A stretch of 39,830 bases of DNA from Nocardioidaceae bacterium (lineage in GTDB: Bacteria; Actinomycetota; Actinomycetes; Propionibacteriales; Nocardioidaceae), in NCBI GenBank assembly GCA_013697585.1, contig JACCWP010000291.1, forward strand, positions 1 to 39,830, in the 5' to 3' direction. The position numbers and the translations under genes were made by a program. The notes under the pieces are model-generated. The model did no database searches. It was not told where the DNA came from and saw only the letters and a list, made by a program, of their open reading frames with translations. Shown here in pieces: positions 10,878 through 16,593 of the stretch. The first letter of the stretch is position 1. Each line of letters opens with the position of its first letter.

Positions 10878-13166
10878 GTGCCCAGCATCGCGCCGTCAGT
10901 GCTCCTGGCCGGGCTTCGCGTGGTTCCTTGGCTGATCGTTGCCGGCGGGCTCGTCGTGCAGGTCGTGATGCCCGACGCCATGGATCACGCCGCCGGGATG
11001 CTTGCCTCGGTGCTGTCCACCGTGGCCCTGTTCGGCGCGCTGCTCATGATGATCGCAGTTGCAGCGGTACGCAGCCGTCGCCGCCGCCCGATGCTGGCTG
11101 CGCTCACCGCCGGCGTACTTCTGTGGCTCGCGGGCTCGGCTGTGCTCCAGGGGTCGGCCACGATCGCGCCGGTCCGCTTCCCGTCCCTGAGCGAGACGCT
11201 GTTCCTCCTCTCGTACGTCGGGCTCGCGGCGTTCGTCTTGACCGACACGGTGCGGAGGGGTCCGCGGGACTGGATCCCTTGGCTCGAGACGCTCGTCTTG
11301 TGCGGTGCAGGCATCTCGGTCGCGGGGACCATCGTGCTCACCCCGATCGCGCTCGCGTTCGACCGCGGTGGGTTGCCGCTGCTTCTTGCCGTGGTCTACC
11401 CGCTGCTCGACATCGGCCTAGCCGCCCTGGTGCTGGCCCAGCTGCTGCTGCACCAACGGGATCGCTCGTGGCGCACGGCGGTACTAATCGTCGGGTTCGT
11501 GGTGCTCGCCGCCGCCGACAGCAGCGTCGTCCTCAACCTCGCCAGCGGCTCCTACCCGATCAGCCCGGGGCTGAACTCGCTGTGGGGAGCAGCGTTCGCG
11601 CTCATGGTGGGCGCGGCGACGACGCCGTCGTCGACCGAGGCGCGGGTCCTGCACGTGCCGCGCCGTTCTCGCACGCTGCTCGCCGCGGTCGCCTCCGCGC
11701 TGGTCGTGCTCGTCGTCAGCCCGCTGGGAGGTCTGGGACTGGTGCTCATCCCAGTCGCGACTGTCACCGTCGCTGCAGCGGGCGCCCGCATGGCGATCGC
11801 GCTGCGGGAGGCGCAGGGCGCCGCCGAGGCGCTGCGGTTGTCTCGTACCGACGACCTGACCGGGCTACCGAACCGTCGCGCCGTCCTCGCTGAGCTGGAC
11901 GAGGGACTGCGCTCGGACTCGCCGCTGGGCTTCATGTTGCTTGACATCGACGGCTTCAAGGACGTCAACGACAGTGTCGGGCACGCAACGGGCGACGCCC
12001 TGCTGGTCCTGGTGGCCGACCGCCTGCGCGACGCGCTGGACAGCCGTACGAGCGTCGCTCGGCTGGGAGGCGACGAGTTTGCCATCGTCGTGCACCACCA
12101 GGACCCGCTGAGGCTGATCGAGACCGCCCGATCGGTGCGTGACCTGCTGGCCGAGCCGCATCCCGTTGACGGGCTGCAGCTGTCGGTCCACGTGTCGATC
12201 GGGATCAGCGTGCGCTTGCCGGCCGACACGCGATCCACCGACCTGCTGCGCCGCGCCGACGTCGCGATGTACGAAGCCAAGGCCTCGCGGGCCGGGGCGC
12301 TGCTCTATGACCCGGCCCAAGACTGCTTCACCCGAGACCGGCTGCGGCGCACCGAGCAGCTGCGTCGCGGGATCCGCAGCGGTCAGCTGGAGATGTGGTA
12401 CCAGCCGCAGATCGACGCCGCGACCCAAGAGGTTGCCTCGGTCGAGGCGCTGGTCCGTTGGAGGCACCCCACCGACGGGTTGCTGGCTCCGGTCATGTTC
12501 CTTCCCGACGCCCGCCGGTACGGGCTGATGAGCGAGTTGTCGTTGGCGGTCATGGGGATGGTTCTCGACGACGCGCGGGCGTGGGTCGACTGCGGCTTCG
12601 AGTTCCGCGTGTCGCTGAACTGCGCTCCGCCCGAGCTGCTCGGGGGAACCCTGCTTCCCGAGTTCTTCGCGATGCTCGACCGAGCCGCGCTGCCACCGGG
12701 CACGCTGGTCGTCGAGATCACCGAGGACTCGTTCATGTCCGACCCCGATCGGGCCCGTGAACGGATGCTAGAGCTTCGCTCCCACCACGTGGAACTGGCC
12801 ATCGACGACTATGGCACTGGCTTCTCCTCGTTGTCGTACCTGCGTGACCTCCCGGTTCAGGAGCTCAAGATGGACCGGTCCTTCGTCGCCACGATGCGCA
12901 GCGATGCCCGCAGCCGGGTGATCGTCGACACCACCCGTCAGATGGCACACGCGATGGGCTTGCGGCTGGTCGCCGAGGGCGTCGAGGACGCTGCAACCGC
13001 GGCCGCCCTGGTCGCGATGAACATCGACCTGCTGCAGGGCAACCACATGTCTCCACCCATGCCGGCGGCTGCGGTCGCCGGCTGGGTGAAGACCTGGTCG
13101 GGCGGCCTCAGTGCCCACCCCGCGTCACTGCCCGAGGTGCAAGGCCCCCCACGAGGCCAGCACTAG
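10878..13166 (+). CDS. Membrane-bound GGDEF-EAL protein (c-di-GMP cyclase/phosphodiesterase)
   Basis: This 762-aa protein can make and break cyclic di-GMP. The N-terminal 310 residues contain about ten hydrophobic segments and no recognisable sensor domain. The GGDEF domain (about 320-480) has DDLTGLPNRRA, DIDGFKDVND and an intact RLGGDEF near residue 397, so cyclase activity is plausible. The inhibitory RxxD site before it is absent. The EAL domain (about 500-745) has SVEALVRWRHP, DDYGTGFSSLSYL, LKMDRSFV and LRLVAEGVED, also intact. The GTG at 10878 has a strong GGAGGTG 7 nt upstream. The gene converges on the LuxI-like operon, with 44 bp between stops. Which activity dominates, and the input signal, cannot be told from sequence. 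Confidence 0.94.
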   Translation: MPSIAPSVLLAGLRVVPWLIVAGGLVVQVVMPDAMDHAAGMLASVLSTVALFGALLMMIAVAAVRSRRRRPMLAALTAGVLLWLAGSAVLQGSATIAPVRFPSLSETLFLLSYVGLAAFVLTDTVRRGPRDWIPWLETLVLCGAGISVAGTIVLTPIALAFDRGGLPLLLAVVYPLLDIGLAALVLAQLLLHQRDRSWRTAVLIVGFVVLAAADSSVVLNLASGSYPISPGLNSLWGAAFALMVGAATTPSSTEARVLHVPRRSRTLLAAVASALVVLVVSPLGGLGLVLIPVATVTVAAAGARMAIALREAQGAAEALRLSRTDDLTGLPNRRAVLAELDEGLRSDSPLGFMLLDIDGFKDVNDSVGHATGDALLVLVADRLRDALDSRTSVARLGGDEFAIVVHHQDPLRLIETARSVRDLLAEPHPVDGLQLSVHVSIGISVRLPADTRSTDLLRRADVAMYEAKASRAGALLYDPAQDCFTRDRLRRTEQLRRGIRSGQLEMWYQPQIDAATQEVASVEALVRWRHPTDGLLAPVMFLPDARRYGLMSELSLAVMGMVLDDARAWVDCGFEFRVSLNCAPPELLGGTLLPEFFAMLDRAALPPGTLVVEITEDSFMSDPDRARERMLELRSHHVELAIDDYGTGFSSLSYLRDLPVQELKMDRSFVATMRSDARSRVIVDTTRQMAHAMGLRLVAEGVEDAATAAALVAMNIDLLQGNHMSPPMPAAAVAGWVKTWSGGLSAHPASLPEVQGPPRGQH

Positions 13167-13210
13167 GCAGGTTGCGGGGCCGACTGCTCGAGCCAGTACC
13201 TGATTCCCAC

Positions 13211-13936
13211 CTACGCAGGCACCCGTTCGTCCACCCACCCCGCCCACGCCGGCTGAGCAGCCGGGATCCGACGCCGAAACGCCGACTGGTGCGGCACCAG
13301 CACCCCGTCGAGGCCGATGCCGAGCGTGACCAGGCGGTGGGCGTCCGGCAGCTCGCGGCGCTGCCGGTCCAGCATCGGGCCGATGTGCGCGTACACGGGC
13401 GTGCTGGCGGGTGAGCCATCGAACGGGGCGGTATGTGCGCCCGGCAGCGGCTGGGTGACGATGCCGACCGAGTCGAGCAGTGCCCGCACCGGCTGGGCCA
13501 GGACCGCCAGGAAACACGAGCAGTCATTGACCCGCGCGACCGTGATGAGCGCGTGATACAACGCCAATGCCATGACCGGCCGGCTGTGCGCGTGCATCCC
13601 GCGCACCCCCAGGGTGGCTACGTCCCAGCTGCTGGCCACGTCGATTCGCGCCGCGGCGGCGCTGCGCCTGGCGTCCACCGACCACGGCGCGCGGGACAAG
13701 TGGTCGAGCGTCTTGGGCCGGCCGAAGCCCGGAGCGAGCAGGCGTACGGCGCCGTGTACATCCCCCTGGTCGTCGGCCAGGGCCACAAACACCGAGCTGG
13801 CCTCGTAGGGACTGAACTCCTCCTCCAGCTCGGCACGGCTTTGGCCGAACCGCTGGTGGAAGACCTCTGCCTCGCACGCGCGGCTGGCTTCCAGGAGGCT
13901 GCCCACGGGGTCGAAGACAAGTCGCAGCTGCTCCAT
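13211..13936 (-). CDS. LuxI/FeeM-like acyltransferase (autoinducer-synthase fold), putative
   Basis: This 241-aa protein has the order of motifs seen in acyl-homoserine-lactone and N-acyl amino acid synthases: SRACEAEVFHQRFG (Arg and Phe as in LuxI R24/F28), an acidic ELEEEFSPYE stretch, VALADDQGDVHGAVRLLAPG (the core strand with the conserved Arg), then SSWDVATLGVR in the place of the WELSRFAV motif. The C-terminal half (LALYHALITVARVNDCSCFLAVLAQPV, then DSVGIVTQPLPG) also fits. LuxI proteins use acyl-ACP and S-adenosylmethionine; FeeM uses acyl-ACP and an amino acid. Several canonical catalytic residues are replaced (Asp by Glu, the motif Trp missing), so the product is unknown. The ATG at 13936 overlaps the stop of the preceding 53-aa gene as TGATG. 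A general GNAT acyltransferase is the main alternative. Confidence 0.55.
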   Translation of the reverse strand: MEQLRLVFDPVGSLLEASRACEAEVFHQRFGQSRAELEEEFSPYEASSVFVALADDQGDVHGAVRLLAPGFGRPKTLDHLSRAPWSVDARRSAAAARIDVASSWDVATLGVRGMHAHSRPVMALALYHALITVARVNDCSCFLAVLAQPVRALLDSVGIVTQPLPGAHTAPFDGSPASTPVYAHIGPMLDRQRRELPDAHRLVTLGIGLDGVLVPHQSAFRRRIPAAQPAWAGWVDERVPA

Positions 13937-14097
13937 CAGAAGTCCCTCCAGACGATCTGGTTTGCGGCGACAAAGTCGGCGGTGCAGCCGAACAGCTCGG
14001 ACAGGTAGTCACGGGTCGCCGCGGCGTCGATGGGCTCGGGGCTCGAGCCCTCGACGACGAGGGGCTGACGGCGGGTCTCGGGGGGAAGGTCTCGCAC
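13936..14097 (-). CDS. 53-aa hypothetical peptide coupled to the LuxI-like gene
   Basis: From a GTG at 14097 this frame encodes 53 residues: a charged, Pro-rich first half (RDLPPETRRQPLVVEG) and an aromatic second half (DYLSELFGCTADFV, then NQIVWRDF). GGAGGA lies 8 nt upstream of the GTG and third positions are C/G-rich, supporting real translation. An in-frame extension to 14157 is possible. The stop overlaps the ATG of the LuxI-like gene (TGATG), so the two are coupled. I do not recognise the family. It has no transmembrane segment and one Cys. It could be a small partner protein, a regulator or a leader peptide for the downstream enzyme. Confidence 0.6.
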   Translation of the reverse strand: MRDLPPETRRQPLVVEGSSPEPIDAAATRDYLSELFGCTADFVAANQIVWRDF

Positions 14098-14109
14098 GGA
14101 AGAAGTCCT

Positions 14110-14128
14110 CCAACTGGGTCTGAGTTGG
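14110..14128 (-). promoter_or_regulatory. Dyad/hairpin overlapping the RBS of the LuxI-like operon
   Basis: A perfect 6-bp dyad, CCAACT - 7 nt - AGTTGG. On the transcript the 3' arm shares its final GG with the GGAGGA Shine-Dalgarno of the 53-aa gene, so folding would hide part of the ribosome binding site. As DNA, the 19-bp dyad could also be an operator, about the size of a lux box. Confidence 0.5.
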
Positions 14129-14146
14129 CAAGTCACGGTGGGTGAC

Positions 14147-14152
14147 AGAGTA
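14147..14152 (-). promoter_or_regulatory. Candidate -10 of the LuxI-like operon
   Basis: TACTCT on the minus strand fits TANNNT. Transcription would start near 14140, giving a leader of about 43 nt that contains the hairpin at 14110-14128. Confidence 0.45.
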
Positions 14153-14381: not shown

Positions 14382-14498
14382 TTAGTACCCGCCGACCCCT
14401 CCGCCACTACCGCCGCCGCTACCTCCGCTGTAAACCACGAGCACGACGATCAGGACCACAACAGCGAATGCTCCGACAATCAGCAGCCATCTGTTCAC
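14382..14498 (-). CDS. 38-aa membrane peptide with glycine/serine tail
   Basis: A short gene reads from GTG at 14498 to TAA at 14384-14382. The product is a three-residue N-terminus with one Arg (MNR), one strongly hydrophobic helix (WLLIVGAFAVVVLIVVLVVY, residues 4-23) and a 15-residue tail of almost only Gly and Ser ending in Gly-Tyr. GGAGGTG lies 6 nt before the GTG. The coding sense is supported by Shine-Dalgarno, clean single-helix topology and the hairpin just after the stop. It is probably a single-pass inner-membrane miniprotein with the flexible tail outside. It could be a small regulator, a hydrophobic toxin-like peptide or a scaffold. The family is not recognised. Confidence 0.65.
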   Translation of the reverse strand: MNRWLLIVGAFAVVVLIVVLVVYSGGSGGGSGGGVGGY

Positions 14499-14661
14499 GG
14501 CGACCACCTCCAGAGACGCTGGTGCGCCCGGCCGCGAGGTCACGAGCTCGGTGGGGCTGCCTTTCGACTCGCCATCAGACGCTTTGGGGCATTGTTACCC
14601 TAAGCGACCACGATAGCACCCGCGGTTACTCAGGGCGACTCCGCTCGCACCATCGGGTGAA

Positions 14662-14838: not shown

Positions 14839-15199
14839 GCAGTGCGGCAGAGTTCGCGCCATGCCACGCCGATCAGGACCCCCTTAGCCCGCAAACCCGC
14901 GGAGCATGGCCAGATCGACACGTCTGATGGCACTGTCTGCCAAATAGGGCATAACGAACTGCGCACGTGACCTACTGGCGGCGCAGTCAGCCGGTCCAAG
15001 AGCCCGGACGCAGCCTAAGTGCACCAGAACGGGTCCCGTCGAGGGGCCGATGAGGCCGGCGACCCGCTCGTGCATCCGTCGAGGCGCAAGAAACCGACTG
15101 ACAGCCCGCGGGGCATTTTGGCTTGTCCACCACGCCGAACCTCCCACGGTGCCCCAGCAGGCACCTGCCTGCAGGAACCACTACCCGTCCCGCCGTCCC

Positions 15200-15216
15200 G
15201 CTATCATATGCTATCG
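15200..15216 (+). promoter_or_regulatory. Operator-like direct repeat / -10 of vapBC-1
   Basis: GCTATCA at 15200-15206 and GCTATCG at 15210-15216 repeat with a 10-bp period, one helical turn. The -10 candidate TATGCT (15207-15212) lies inside. GGAGG and the vapB1 ATG follow. A related pair occurs before vapB2, inverted relative to that gene. This is the expected place for autorepression by the ribbon-helix-helix antitoxin. Confidence 0.5.
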
Positions 15217-15231
15217 AATGGAGGTGTCGCG

Positions 15232-15453
15232 ATGACTGACGTCCTCGTCCGTGACGTGCCCGAGGAGGTGATCACTGCGCTCGACGCTCGCGCGTCCCGC
15301 CTCGGGCTCTCCCGCAGCGAATACCTGCGTCGACGACTGGCTCAGGAGGCGAGGAGCAGCCCGCTGCCGGTGTCCCCCGAGGATCTCGCCGCCTTCGCGG
15401 AGACGTTCGCCGACCTCGCCGACCCGGAGATGATGAGAGGCGCCTGGGAGTGA
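15232..15453 (+). CDS. VapB-type (FitA-like) antitoxin
   Basis: This 73-aa protein has an N-terminal ribbon-helix-helix DNA-binding domain ([20 protein letters not shown], then [17 protein letters not shown]). It is followed by a short acidic C-terminus ([21 protein letters not shown]) that would wrap the toxin. FitA/VapB proteins neutralise the PIN toxin and repress their own promoter. The ATG at 15232 has GGAGG about 8 nt upstream and lies just after the operator-like repeats. The stop overlaps the toxin GTG (GTGA). Family and pairing are secure. Confidence 0.92.
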
Positions 15454-15857
15454 CTTCCTGGCTGATCGATACCTCGGCTCTCGTCCGTCTGGCGCGCACT
15501 AACGAGGCCGCCACGTGGACAGAACGGATCGAGCGCGGACTGGTGCGCATCAGCACCGTGACGCGACTTGAGATCGGCTACTCGGCGCGATCGGGCCCAG
15601 ACCTGCGCGCTGCGACACACCGACCTCCACTGGCATCGATGCCCGTGGAGTACCAGACACCGGCAATCGAGGACCGGGCCATCGAGGTCCAGATGCGCCT
15701 GGCCGACCTCGGACGCCACCGGGCCCCCTCGGTCGCAGACTTGATCGTCGCTGCCACTGCAGAACTGGCCGGTTTGACAGTCGTCCACGTCGACAAGGAC
15801 TTCGAGGTCATCGCCGAGGTCACCGCCCAGCCGATCGAGCGCCTCGTCGCGGCCTGA
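15450..15857 (+). CDS. VapC-type PIN-domain toxin
   Basis: This 135-aa PIN-domain ribonuclease is the toxin of the first module. The acidic metal-binding residues are visible: Asp7 ([12 protein letters not shown]), Glu near 41 ([10 protein letters not shown]), Asp in [12 protein letters not shown] and Asp in [11 protein letters not shown]. VapC toxins cleave specific tRNA or rRNA sites and halt translation when the antitoxin is degraded. The GTG overlaps the antitoxin stop by 4 nt, the usual coupled arrangement. The active site looks complete, so the module should be functional. It ends 32 bp from the stop of a second, convergent module. Confidence 0.93.
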
Positions 15858-15889: not shown

Positions 15890-16321
15890 TCAACCCTCTG
15901 GTGGGTGCCGGACGGTCACGACCTCGCACCGGATGATCGCGCCGGATCGTTCAACTTGGCTGTCAGCCGTCAGCAGCGCAGTCCCGTGCCGTTCGGCGGC
16001 GGCGACGTAGATCGCGTCGGCGTAGCGCAGCGACCCTTGCGCGAGGGCCCAAGCTCGGCGGACATCGGGCCACGGTGTCGCCTCGATGACAATCTCGAGG
16101 GCCTCCGCCGCCTGAAGGGCTGGTGCCAGGTCTGCAGGCTGCAACGGATGGTGCGGCCGGTTCGCAGCGGCGCCGAGACCGGACATGACCTCGAACGCGA
16201 AGTGGCCCGGCGCGGTGAGTTGCTCGGTTGCTGGCAGACCGGCCAACGCCGCCCGAGCCGCGACACCTCGCGGACCAGGATCGGCAACCACGTCGATGAC
16301 CAGCGACGCGTCGACGATCAA
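15890..16321 (-). CDS. Second VapC-type PIN-domain toxin
   Basis: This 143-aa PIN-domain ribonuclease has an intact acidic set: Asp4 (MIVDASLVIDVV), Glu in HFAFEVMSGL, Asp in LRYADAIYVAAAE and Asp in LLTADSQVER. It is only distantly similar to the first VapC, so the two modules are not a recent duplication. The ATG at 16321 overlaps the stop of its antitoxin as ATGA. The predicted activity is cleavage of a structured RNA target; which RNA is unknown. Confidence 0.93.
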   Translation of the reverse strand: MIVDASLVIDVVADPGPRGVAARAALAGLPATEQLTAPGHFAFEVMSGLGAAANRPHHPLQPADLAPALQAAEALEIVIEATPWPDVRRAWALAQGSLRYADAIYVAAAERHGTALLTADSQVERSGAIIRCEVVTVRHPPEG

Positions 16322-16593
16322 CTCGCTGGCCGACCACGCAGCTGCTCGGCTCGTTCGTCATGGCCGCGATCGACTTCCGCCAGGACGGCGCGCCTCTCGC
16401 TGTCGGGGACCACCGGCTGTCCCCGCAGTCGCTCCGCGGTGCGAGCAATCGCTGCCTGCCGGCGTAGGTACACCGCCTGGGCGTGGACGGCGTCGCGCAA
16501 GTAGCTCTGCAACGACGTGCCCCTCTCGGCTGCAGCCGCGCGGATCTGATCGAGGTCATCGGGAGGCACATCGCGAATGAGTACGTTCGGCAT
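16318..16593 (-). CDS. Second VapB/FitA-type antitoxin
   Basis: This 91-aa ribbon-helix-helix antitoxin (PNVLIRDVPPDDLDQIRAAA, then RGTSLQSYLRDAVHAQA) has a longer charged C-terminal arm than the first antitoxin. It pairs with the PIN toxin that follows with a 4-nt overlap. The ATG at 16593 has no Shine-Dalgarno, but TAGCAT lies exactly 6 nt upstream, so the mRNA is probably leaderless. The GATAGC-type direct repeat overlaps that -10, which would let the antitoxin block transcription directly. Confidence 0.92.
   Translation of the reverse strand: MPNVLIRDVPPDDLDQIRAAAAERGTSLQSYLRDAVHAQAVYLRRQAAIARTAERLRGQPVVPDSERRAVLAEVDRGHDERAEQLRGRPAS

Follow-up and report, generated by a model that had tools for sequence, protein, structure and literature searches.

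The window, by which we mean the whole stretch of 39,830 nucleotides that was analysed, is one whole contig (C294) of a draft Nocardioidaceae genome of 2.94 Mb (299 contigs, 98.9% complete). Its minus strand encodes a 241-aa protein resembling the LuxI/FeeM superfamily of acyltransferases (P0001; 13211..13936), assigned through an AlphaFold2 model, Foldseek and residue comparison. Directly upstream on the same strand is a 53-aa ORF (13936..14097), in which alignment with homologues points to an in-frame deletion of the core of a SpeD-like (AdoMet_dc, PF02675) gene. This ORF starts with a GTG at 14097 and ends at 13936, where the stop/start overlap with the 241-aa ORF is TGATG; its frame is open back to 14157 (73 aa), and 14097 is the start it has in common with its relatives. 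A Shine-Dalgarno-like GGAGGA on the minus strand (TCCTCC on the plus strand; 14106..14111), found by direct reading, precedes the GTG, and the related locus L022 has the same layout.

Converging on this pair across a 44-bp gap (13167..13210) is a plus-strand gene (10878..13166) for a 762-aa protein with GGDEF and EAL domains (PF00990, 2e-37; PF00563, 3e-62), both with intact motifs. Its N-terminal domain of 8-9 transmembrane (TM) segments (10878..11845), common to the acyltransferase-linked GGDEF-EAL proteins, is a candidate sensor. The arrangement described in an earlier note on this DNA was confirmed. Two further features lie beyond the pair: a minus-strand 53-aa ORF (14382-14543), which has a single hydrophobic segment, a tail rich in glycine (GGSGGGSGGGVGGY) and no Pfam match, and two tail-to-tail pairs of RHH antitoxin and PIN toxin of the FitAB/VapBC type (15019-15857, plus strand; 15890-16593, minus strand), with Pfam PIN matches of 6e-13 and 1.5e-13 and RHH matches slightly under the cut-off.

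The acyltransferase and its SpeD-like partner

P0001 on its own yields a single, weak profile match, to the exosortase-associated acyltransferases of TIGR03694, and its 22.9 bits against a curated cut-off of 111.95 bits do not make it a member; as the sole query in a protein scan of genome contigs it found no relatives. Using a profile of 56 homologues against all PDB sequences, we recovered LasI at E=0.0022. Most of these homologues match TIGR03694 (40/56) and some match Autoind_synth (14/56), while the FeeM Pfam family PF21926 is matched by 3 of the 56 (best 9e-5) and by P0001 itself not at all. The LuxI-like motif order that the earlier note had read by eye is thus real. Foldseek placed BjaI and LasI in the top two positions among PDB matches to the AlphaFold2 model of P0001 (pLDDT 93.4), with LuxI-type entries 5w8a and 1ro5 at probability 1.00, and FeeM (2g0b, TMt 0.73-0.78) and EsaI within the top 13. 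Judged by this modelled fold, the 241-aa protein belongs to the LuxI/FeeM superfamily, as had been proposed.

The conserved residues of LuxI proteins are R23, F27, W33, D44, D47, R70, E101 and R104 in LasI numbering. Across the acyltransferase family the alignment retains the F27 and R70 equivalents, with D or E at the E101 position and mostly E or D at the D47 position; nearly all members have E, N and T in place of R23, W33 and R104, and most have G in place of D44. The altered catalytic residues that the earlier note had remarked on are therefore a property of the whole family, and since most AHL-synthase residues are changed, AHL is not the product expected from these sequences. The family shares with LuxI AHL synthases (LasI, BjaI, EsaI) a GNAT-related fold, the motif order and the F27 and R70 equivalents, but differs from them in these replacements and in its linked partners, which are a decarboxylase and either a GGDEF-EAL protein or a kinase. 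Compared with N-acyl amino acid synthases of the FeeM and exosortase-linked kinds (PF21926, TIGR03694), it shares their fold, with a TMt of up to 0.78 to FeeM, and shows weak profile similarity, but it scores far under the TIGR03694 cut-off and its gene is coupled to those for a decarboxylase and a signal transducer.

Where the window has the 53-aa ORF, its three nearest relatives carry a gene for a full protein of ~113 aa. Alignment with these full-length homologues, which belong to the AdoMet_dc family, shows that the ORF keeps the first ~35 residues and the C-terminal tail and lacks, in frame, the part between them, so that the AdoMet_dc catalytic core is missing; its profile match (E=3e-5) is confined to the first 42 positions. 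Additionally, A5P, I8T, R12P and I28T change four positions that are invariant in intact homologues. On this alignment, the ORF is what remains of a SpeD-like gene and not a new peptide of unknown family, as had been thought, which leaves an acyl-peptide system unsupported.

The intact partner is recognised by PF02675 in all 51 members scanned (E<=0.01; the first member scored 33.4 bits against a cut-off of 25), and its AlphaFold2 model (pLDDT 96.3) has a TM score of 0.78 to Thermotoga maritima AdoMetDC (1tmi). Searched against PDB sequences, the SpeD-like profile gave only chance matches to RNA-binding proteins. Among 80 homologues, the equivalents of the T. maritima pyruvoyl Ser63 and of Cys83 are kept (S66 and C87), His68 and Ser55 are replaced by Tyr (Y71) and Ala, and H62 and H69 are newly invariant. 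The position of T. maritima Phe49, which is presumably part of the adenine-binding site, is occupied by Ser in the alignment. The replacement of His68 and Ser55 leaves self-processing in question, and with H68 replaced the family lacks the full set of S63, H68 and C83 of AdoMetDC sensu stricto, the roles of these residues being taken from PMC10407285. SpeD has neofunctionalised forms, SpeDA and SpeDC (PMC10407285); the present family shares with all of these the PF02675 fold, the pyruvoyl Ser and the catalytic Cys, but differs in H68 to Tyr, S55 to Ala and the invariant H62 and H69, and in being linked to an acyltransferase rather than to polyamine genes. No canonical SpeD was seen in the nearest genomes, a weak result because the same search overlooked the known SpeD-like genes of two genomes (G001, G035).

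Conservation of the gene set and exchange of its parts

With the SpeD-like alignment as query, a scan of 84,980 species genomes gave 133 relatives, 80 of which were fetched as loci; the gene occurs in ~1% of sampled Actinomycetota genomes (3/396). The LuxI-like gene lies directly downstream of the SpeD-like gene at 75 of the 80 loci, and in the closest relatives the overlap is exactly TGATG. The other five are without an acyltransferase profile match, and one of them (L090) has a divergent candidate seen by eye (YESSSVF). A GGDEF-EAL gene adjoins the pair at 57 loci (28 convergent, 23 upstream and co-directional, few otherwise arranged), and 314 kb of outer flanks held four stray domain matches, some of them from the linked genes themselves. 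The co-occurrence envisaged in the earlier note was thus borne out for the GGDEF-EAL gene, the other partner being a full SpeD-like gene instead of a 53-aa peptide, and of the small acyl-signal or acyl-peptide system linked to c-di-GMP that it had suggested, the linkage to a GGDEF-EAL gene is supported across many actinobacteria and the acyl-peptide is not.

Other loci carry a different transducer in place of the GGDEF-EAL protein. At 10/80 a histidine kinase lies downstream (nine Saccharibacteria-type bins and Mycolicibacterium sphagni); the histidine kinases scanned have 7-9 hydrophobic segments, PF16927 (HisKA_7TM) was detected in the M. sphagni kinase, and the Saccharibacteria loci have a response regulator upstream. 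At 4/80, all in Micromonosporaceae, the place is taken by a Ser/Thr kinase, in which a hydropathy scan found no TM segment, so not every partner resembles a membrane receptor. The remaining 9/80 loci are without any of the three, several of them because the contig stops there. Traced over the acyltransferase tree, the label of the neighbouring gene switches 11 times or more, indicating that the association of acyltransferase and GGDEF-EAL protein survives rearrangement. SpeD-like and acyltransferase similarities are correlated (Mantel r=0.62, 0/999 permutations as high), for which shared ancestry alone could suffice. Neither a transporter nor a route of export was identified for the module.

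Several loci depart from these patterns. M. sphagni (L085) has the histidine-kinase form otherwise seen in Saccharibacteria, and gene transfer between the two groups is possible. Second SpeD-like genes without an acyltransferase occur at L037 and L050, in assemblies that also hold the full module (L028 and L023), and in a Bdellovibrionales bin (L059) the SpeD-like locus is followed by a 369-aa ORF without known function and an aminotransferase. No SpeD-like relative was present in the phage collection; the plasmid collection held three distant ones, one beside a GNAT gene, namely on an Acaryochloris marina plasmid (L095:3908-5357), where the GNAT gene is directly followed by the distant SpeD-like gene (32% identity).

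Most linked GGDEF-EAL proteins have a multi-TM N-terminal domain. It is homologous among their three main lineages, with hhalign probabilities of 70-95%, and none of the 8 further EAL loci fetched from the window's genome has it. Comparing it with the histidine-kinase TM domain revealed no similarity. Using the TM domain alone as query in 337 genomes of the same family, we obtained 32 with a match and read 20 loci not known before: at 19 a LuxI-like gene follows directly downstream and a SpeD-like gene is missing, and a contig end cuts the twentieth. In 18 of these 19 SpeD-less Nocardioidaceae loci, a PLP-dependent amino-acid decarboxylase gene (PF00282) lies immediately upstream in the same direction, its nearest named relatives including diaminobutyrate, tyrosine and aromatic amino-acid decarboxylases. 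One such gene is L134:3368-4786. The acyltransferases of the SpeD-less loci group in a single clade (SH-aLRT 99) nested among the SpeD-bearing ones, so the exchange counts as one event, not eighteen; on the tree it looks like a single replacement of the SpeD-like gene by a PLP decarboxylase, kept since. PLP decarboxylase homologues (E about 1e-94) also occur at three Acidimicrobiia loci of the SpeD type (L039:866-2266, L048:54-1394, L052:156-1658), several kb upstream and on the other strand.

It is mainly because a non-homologous decarboxylase takes its place that we think the SpeD-like protein supplies an amine. The same exchange bears on a different account, in which the LuxI-like enzyme is a SAM-using AHL synthase and the SpeD-like protein merely tunes or competes for SAM. 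The fold and the weak profile matches to LuxI proteins are consistent with such an enzyme, and a LuxI homologue in a different gene context has been reported to be necessary for AHL production in Rhodococcus (PMC13136126). However, the PLP amino-acid decarboxylase found instead of SpeD in one clade does not suit a SAM-tuning role, the LasI residues R23, W33 and R104, and mostly D44, are replaced as described above, and Ser stands at the Phe49 position of the adenine-binding site, which together make an AHL synthase improbable.

Alternatively, the product could be an N-acyl lipid with a structural or secretory role, for example a biosurfactant or an aminolipid, whose production c-di-GMP only regulates. 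FeeM is a maker of N-acyl amino acids, and both its close fold match and the standing of TIGR03694 as the nearest family model fit a lipid. Yet three kinds of signal transducer occupy the neighbouring position, and the acyltransferase is accompanied by a TM domain dedicated to it; we regard a lipid without a signalling role as unlikely.

State of the copy in the window

P0001 departs from the family at six of 19 near-invariant columns (N32Q, Y41F, D79H, D147A, Y172F and L173D), and these changes are unique among 75 acyltransferases. The 55 SpeD-linked homologues have a median of 0 and a maximum of 3 departures at such columns, partly gaps. A further candidate explanation, that the odd residues mark enzymes without a SpeD-like partner, was ruled out: 19/19 SpeD-less enzymes keep all six residues, and the changes in P0001 are therefore not adaptations to SpeD absence. 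Together with the lost SpeD core, they suggest that the operon copy in the window is probably decaying beside a seemingly intact GGDEF-EAL gene, and we infer a loss of function. P0001 itself may still be active, as its branch on the acyltransferase tree is only moderately long and its fold is predicted to be intact.

The same features could belong to a functional operon in which the acyltransferase has changed its substrate and the 53-aa ORF is newly employed or harmless. The deletion is in frame, the ribosome-binding site and TGATG are retained, a SpeD-less clade exists, and the window's genome has two distant PLP decarboxylase homologues elsewhere. Against this, SpeD-less enzymes retain the very residues that P0001 has lost, and conserved positions are also changed in what is left of the 53-aa ORF; we consider a functional operon rather doubtful. 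Assembly error is also conceivable as the origin of the core deletion in a draft genome of 299 contigs, but the near-invariant changes in the residual codons and the private changes of the acyltransferase look like real decay and make an error very improbable.

A proposed amine-based signalling module

Considering the evidence as a whole, we favour reading the locus as a conserved module, present here in a decaying copy, that consists of a decarboxylase, a LuxI/FeeM-superfamily N-acyltransferase and a signal transducer and in which an amine is acylated and the product sensed; we think this somewhat more probable than its denial. The decarboxylase, usually the SpeD-like pyruvoyl type and in one clade a PLP enzyme, would make the amine. 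The LuxI-like enzyme would then add a fatty acyl chain to it, with acyl-ACP or acyl-CoA as donor, and the N-acyl-amine would act as a signal sensed through the linked transducer, leading to changes in c-di-GMP or in phosphorylation. The transducer would usually be the 8-9 TM GGDEF-EAL protein, and otherwise a membrane histidine kinase with a response regulator or a Ser/Thr kinase. In the acyltransferase, N32, D105 and T108 would line the acceptor site. Observed here are homology, modelled folds, gene linkage, the exchange of one decarboxylase type for another and the losses in the window's own copy; the SpeD-like activity, the acceptor and donor, the reaction and the sensing of its product are what we infer.

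A full-text search of open-licence literature for SpeD/AdoMetDC together with LuxI, AHL synthase, GGDEF or diguanylate cyclase turned up no account of this gene set, which is conserved and apparently undescribed. LuxI homologues beside a sensory kinase gene are on record in CPR bacteria (PMC7567580); in the part of that report drawn on here, their residues are mostly canonical for LuxI and no SpeD-like gene is mentioned. A 2026 study described actinobacterial LuxI homologues without proximal LuxR partners carrying ligand-binding domains (PMC13136126). We give about even chances to the broader proposal that the module represents an undescribed class of bacterial signal system, common to actinobacteria and Saccharibacteria, in which a decarboxylase-derived amine becomes a LuxI-superfamily N-acyl-amine signal with the linked GGDEF-EAL protein, histidine kinase or Ser/Thr kinase as receptor or effector.

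Actinobacterial acyl signalling lacks known receptors, and this module places a candidate receptor next to a synthase. It occurs in cultured genera (Blastococcus, Actinotalea, Geodermatophilus and Actinoplanes), so the proposal is testable at once. If true, it would carry LuxI-type chemistry beyond lactones to amines, find a use for an orphan SpeD subfamily and tie an acyl signal directly to c-di-GMP. The module suggests that soil actinobacteria and Saccharibacteria have a fatty-amine signal of a new kind. Some Saccharibacteria live on actinobacterial hosts, and the presence of the module in both groups raises the possibility of shared signals.
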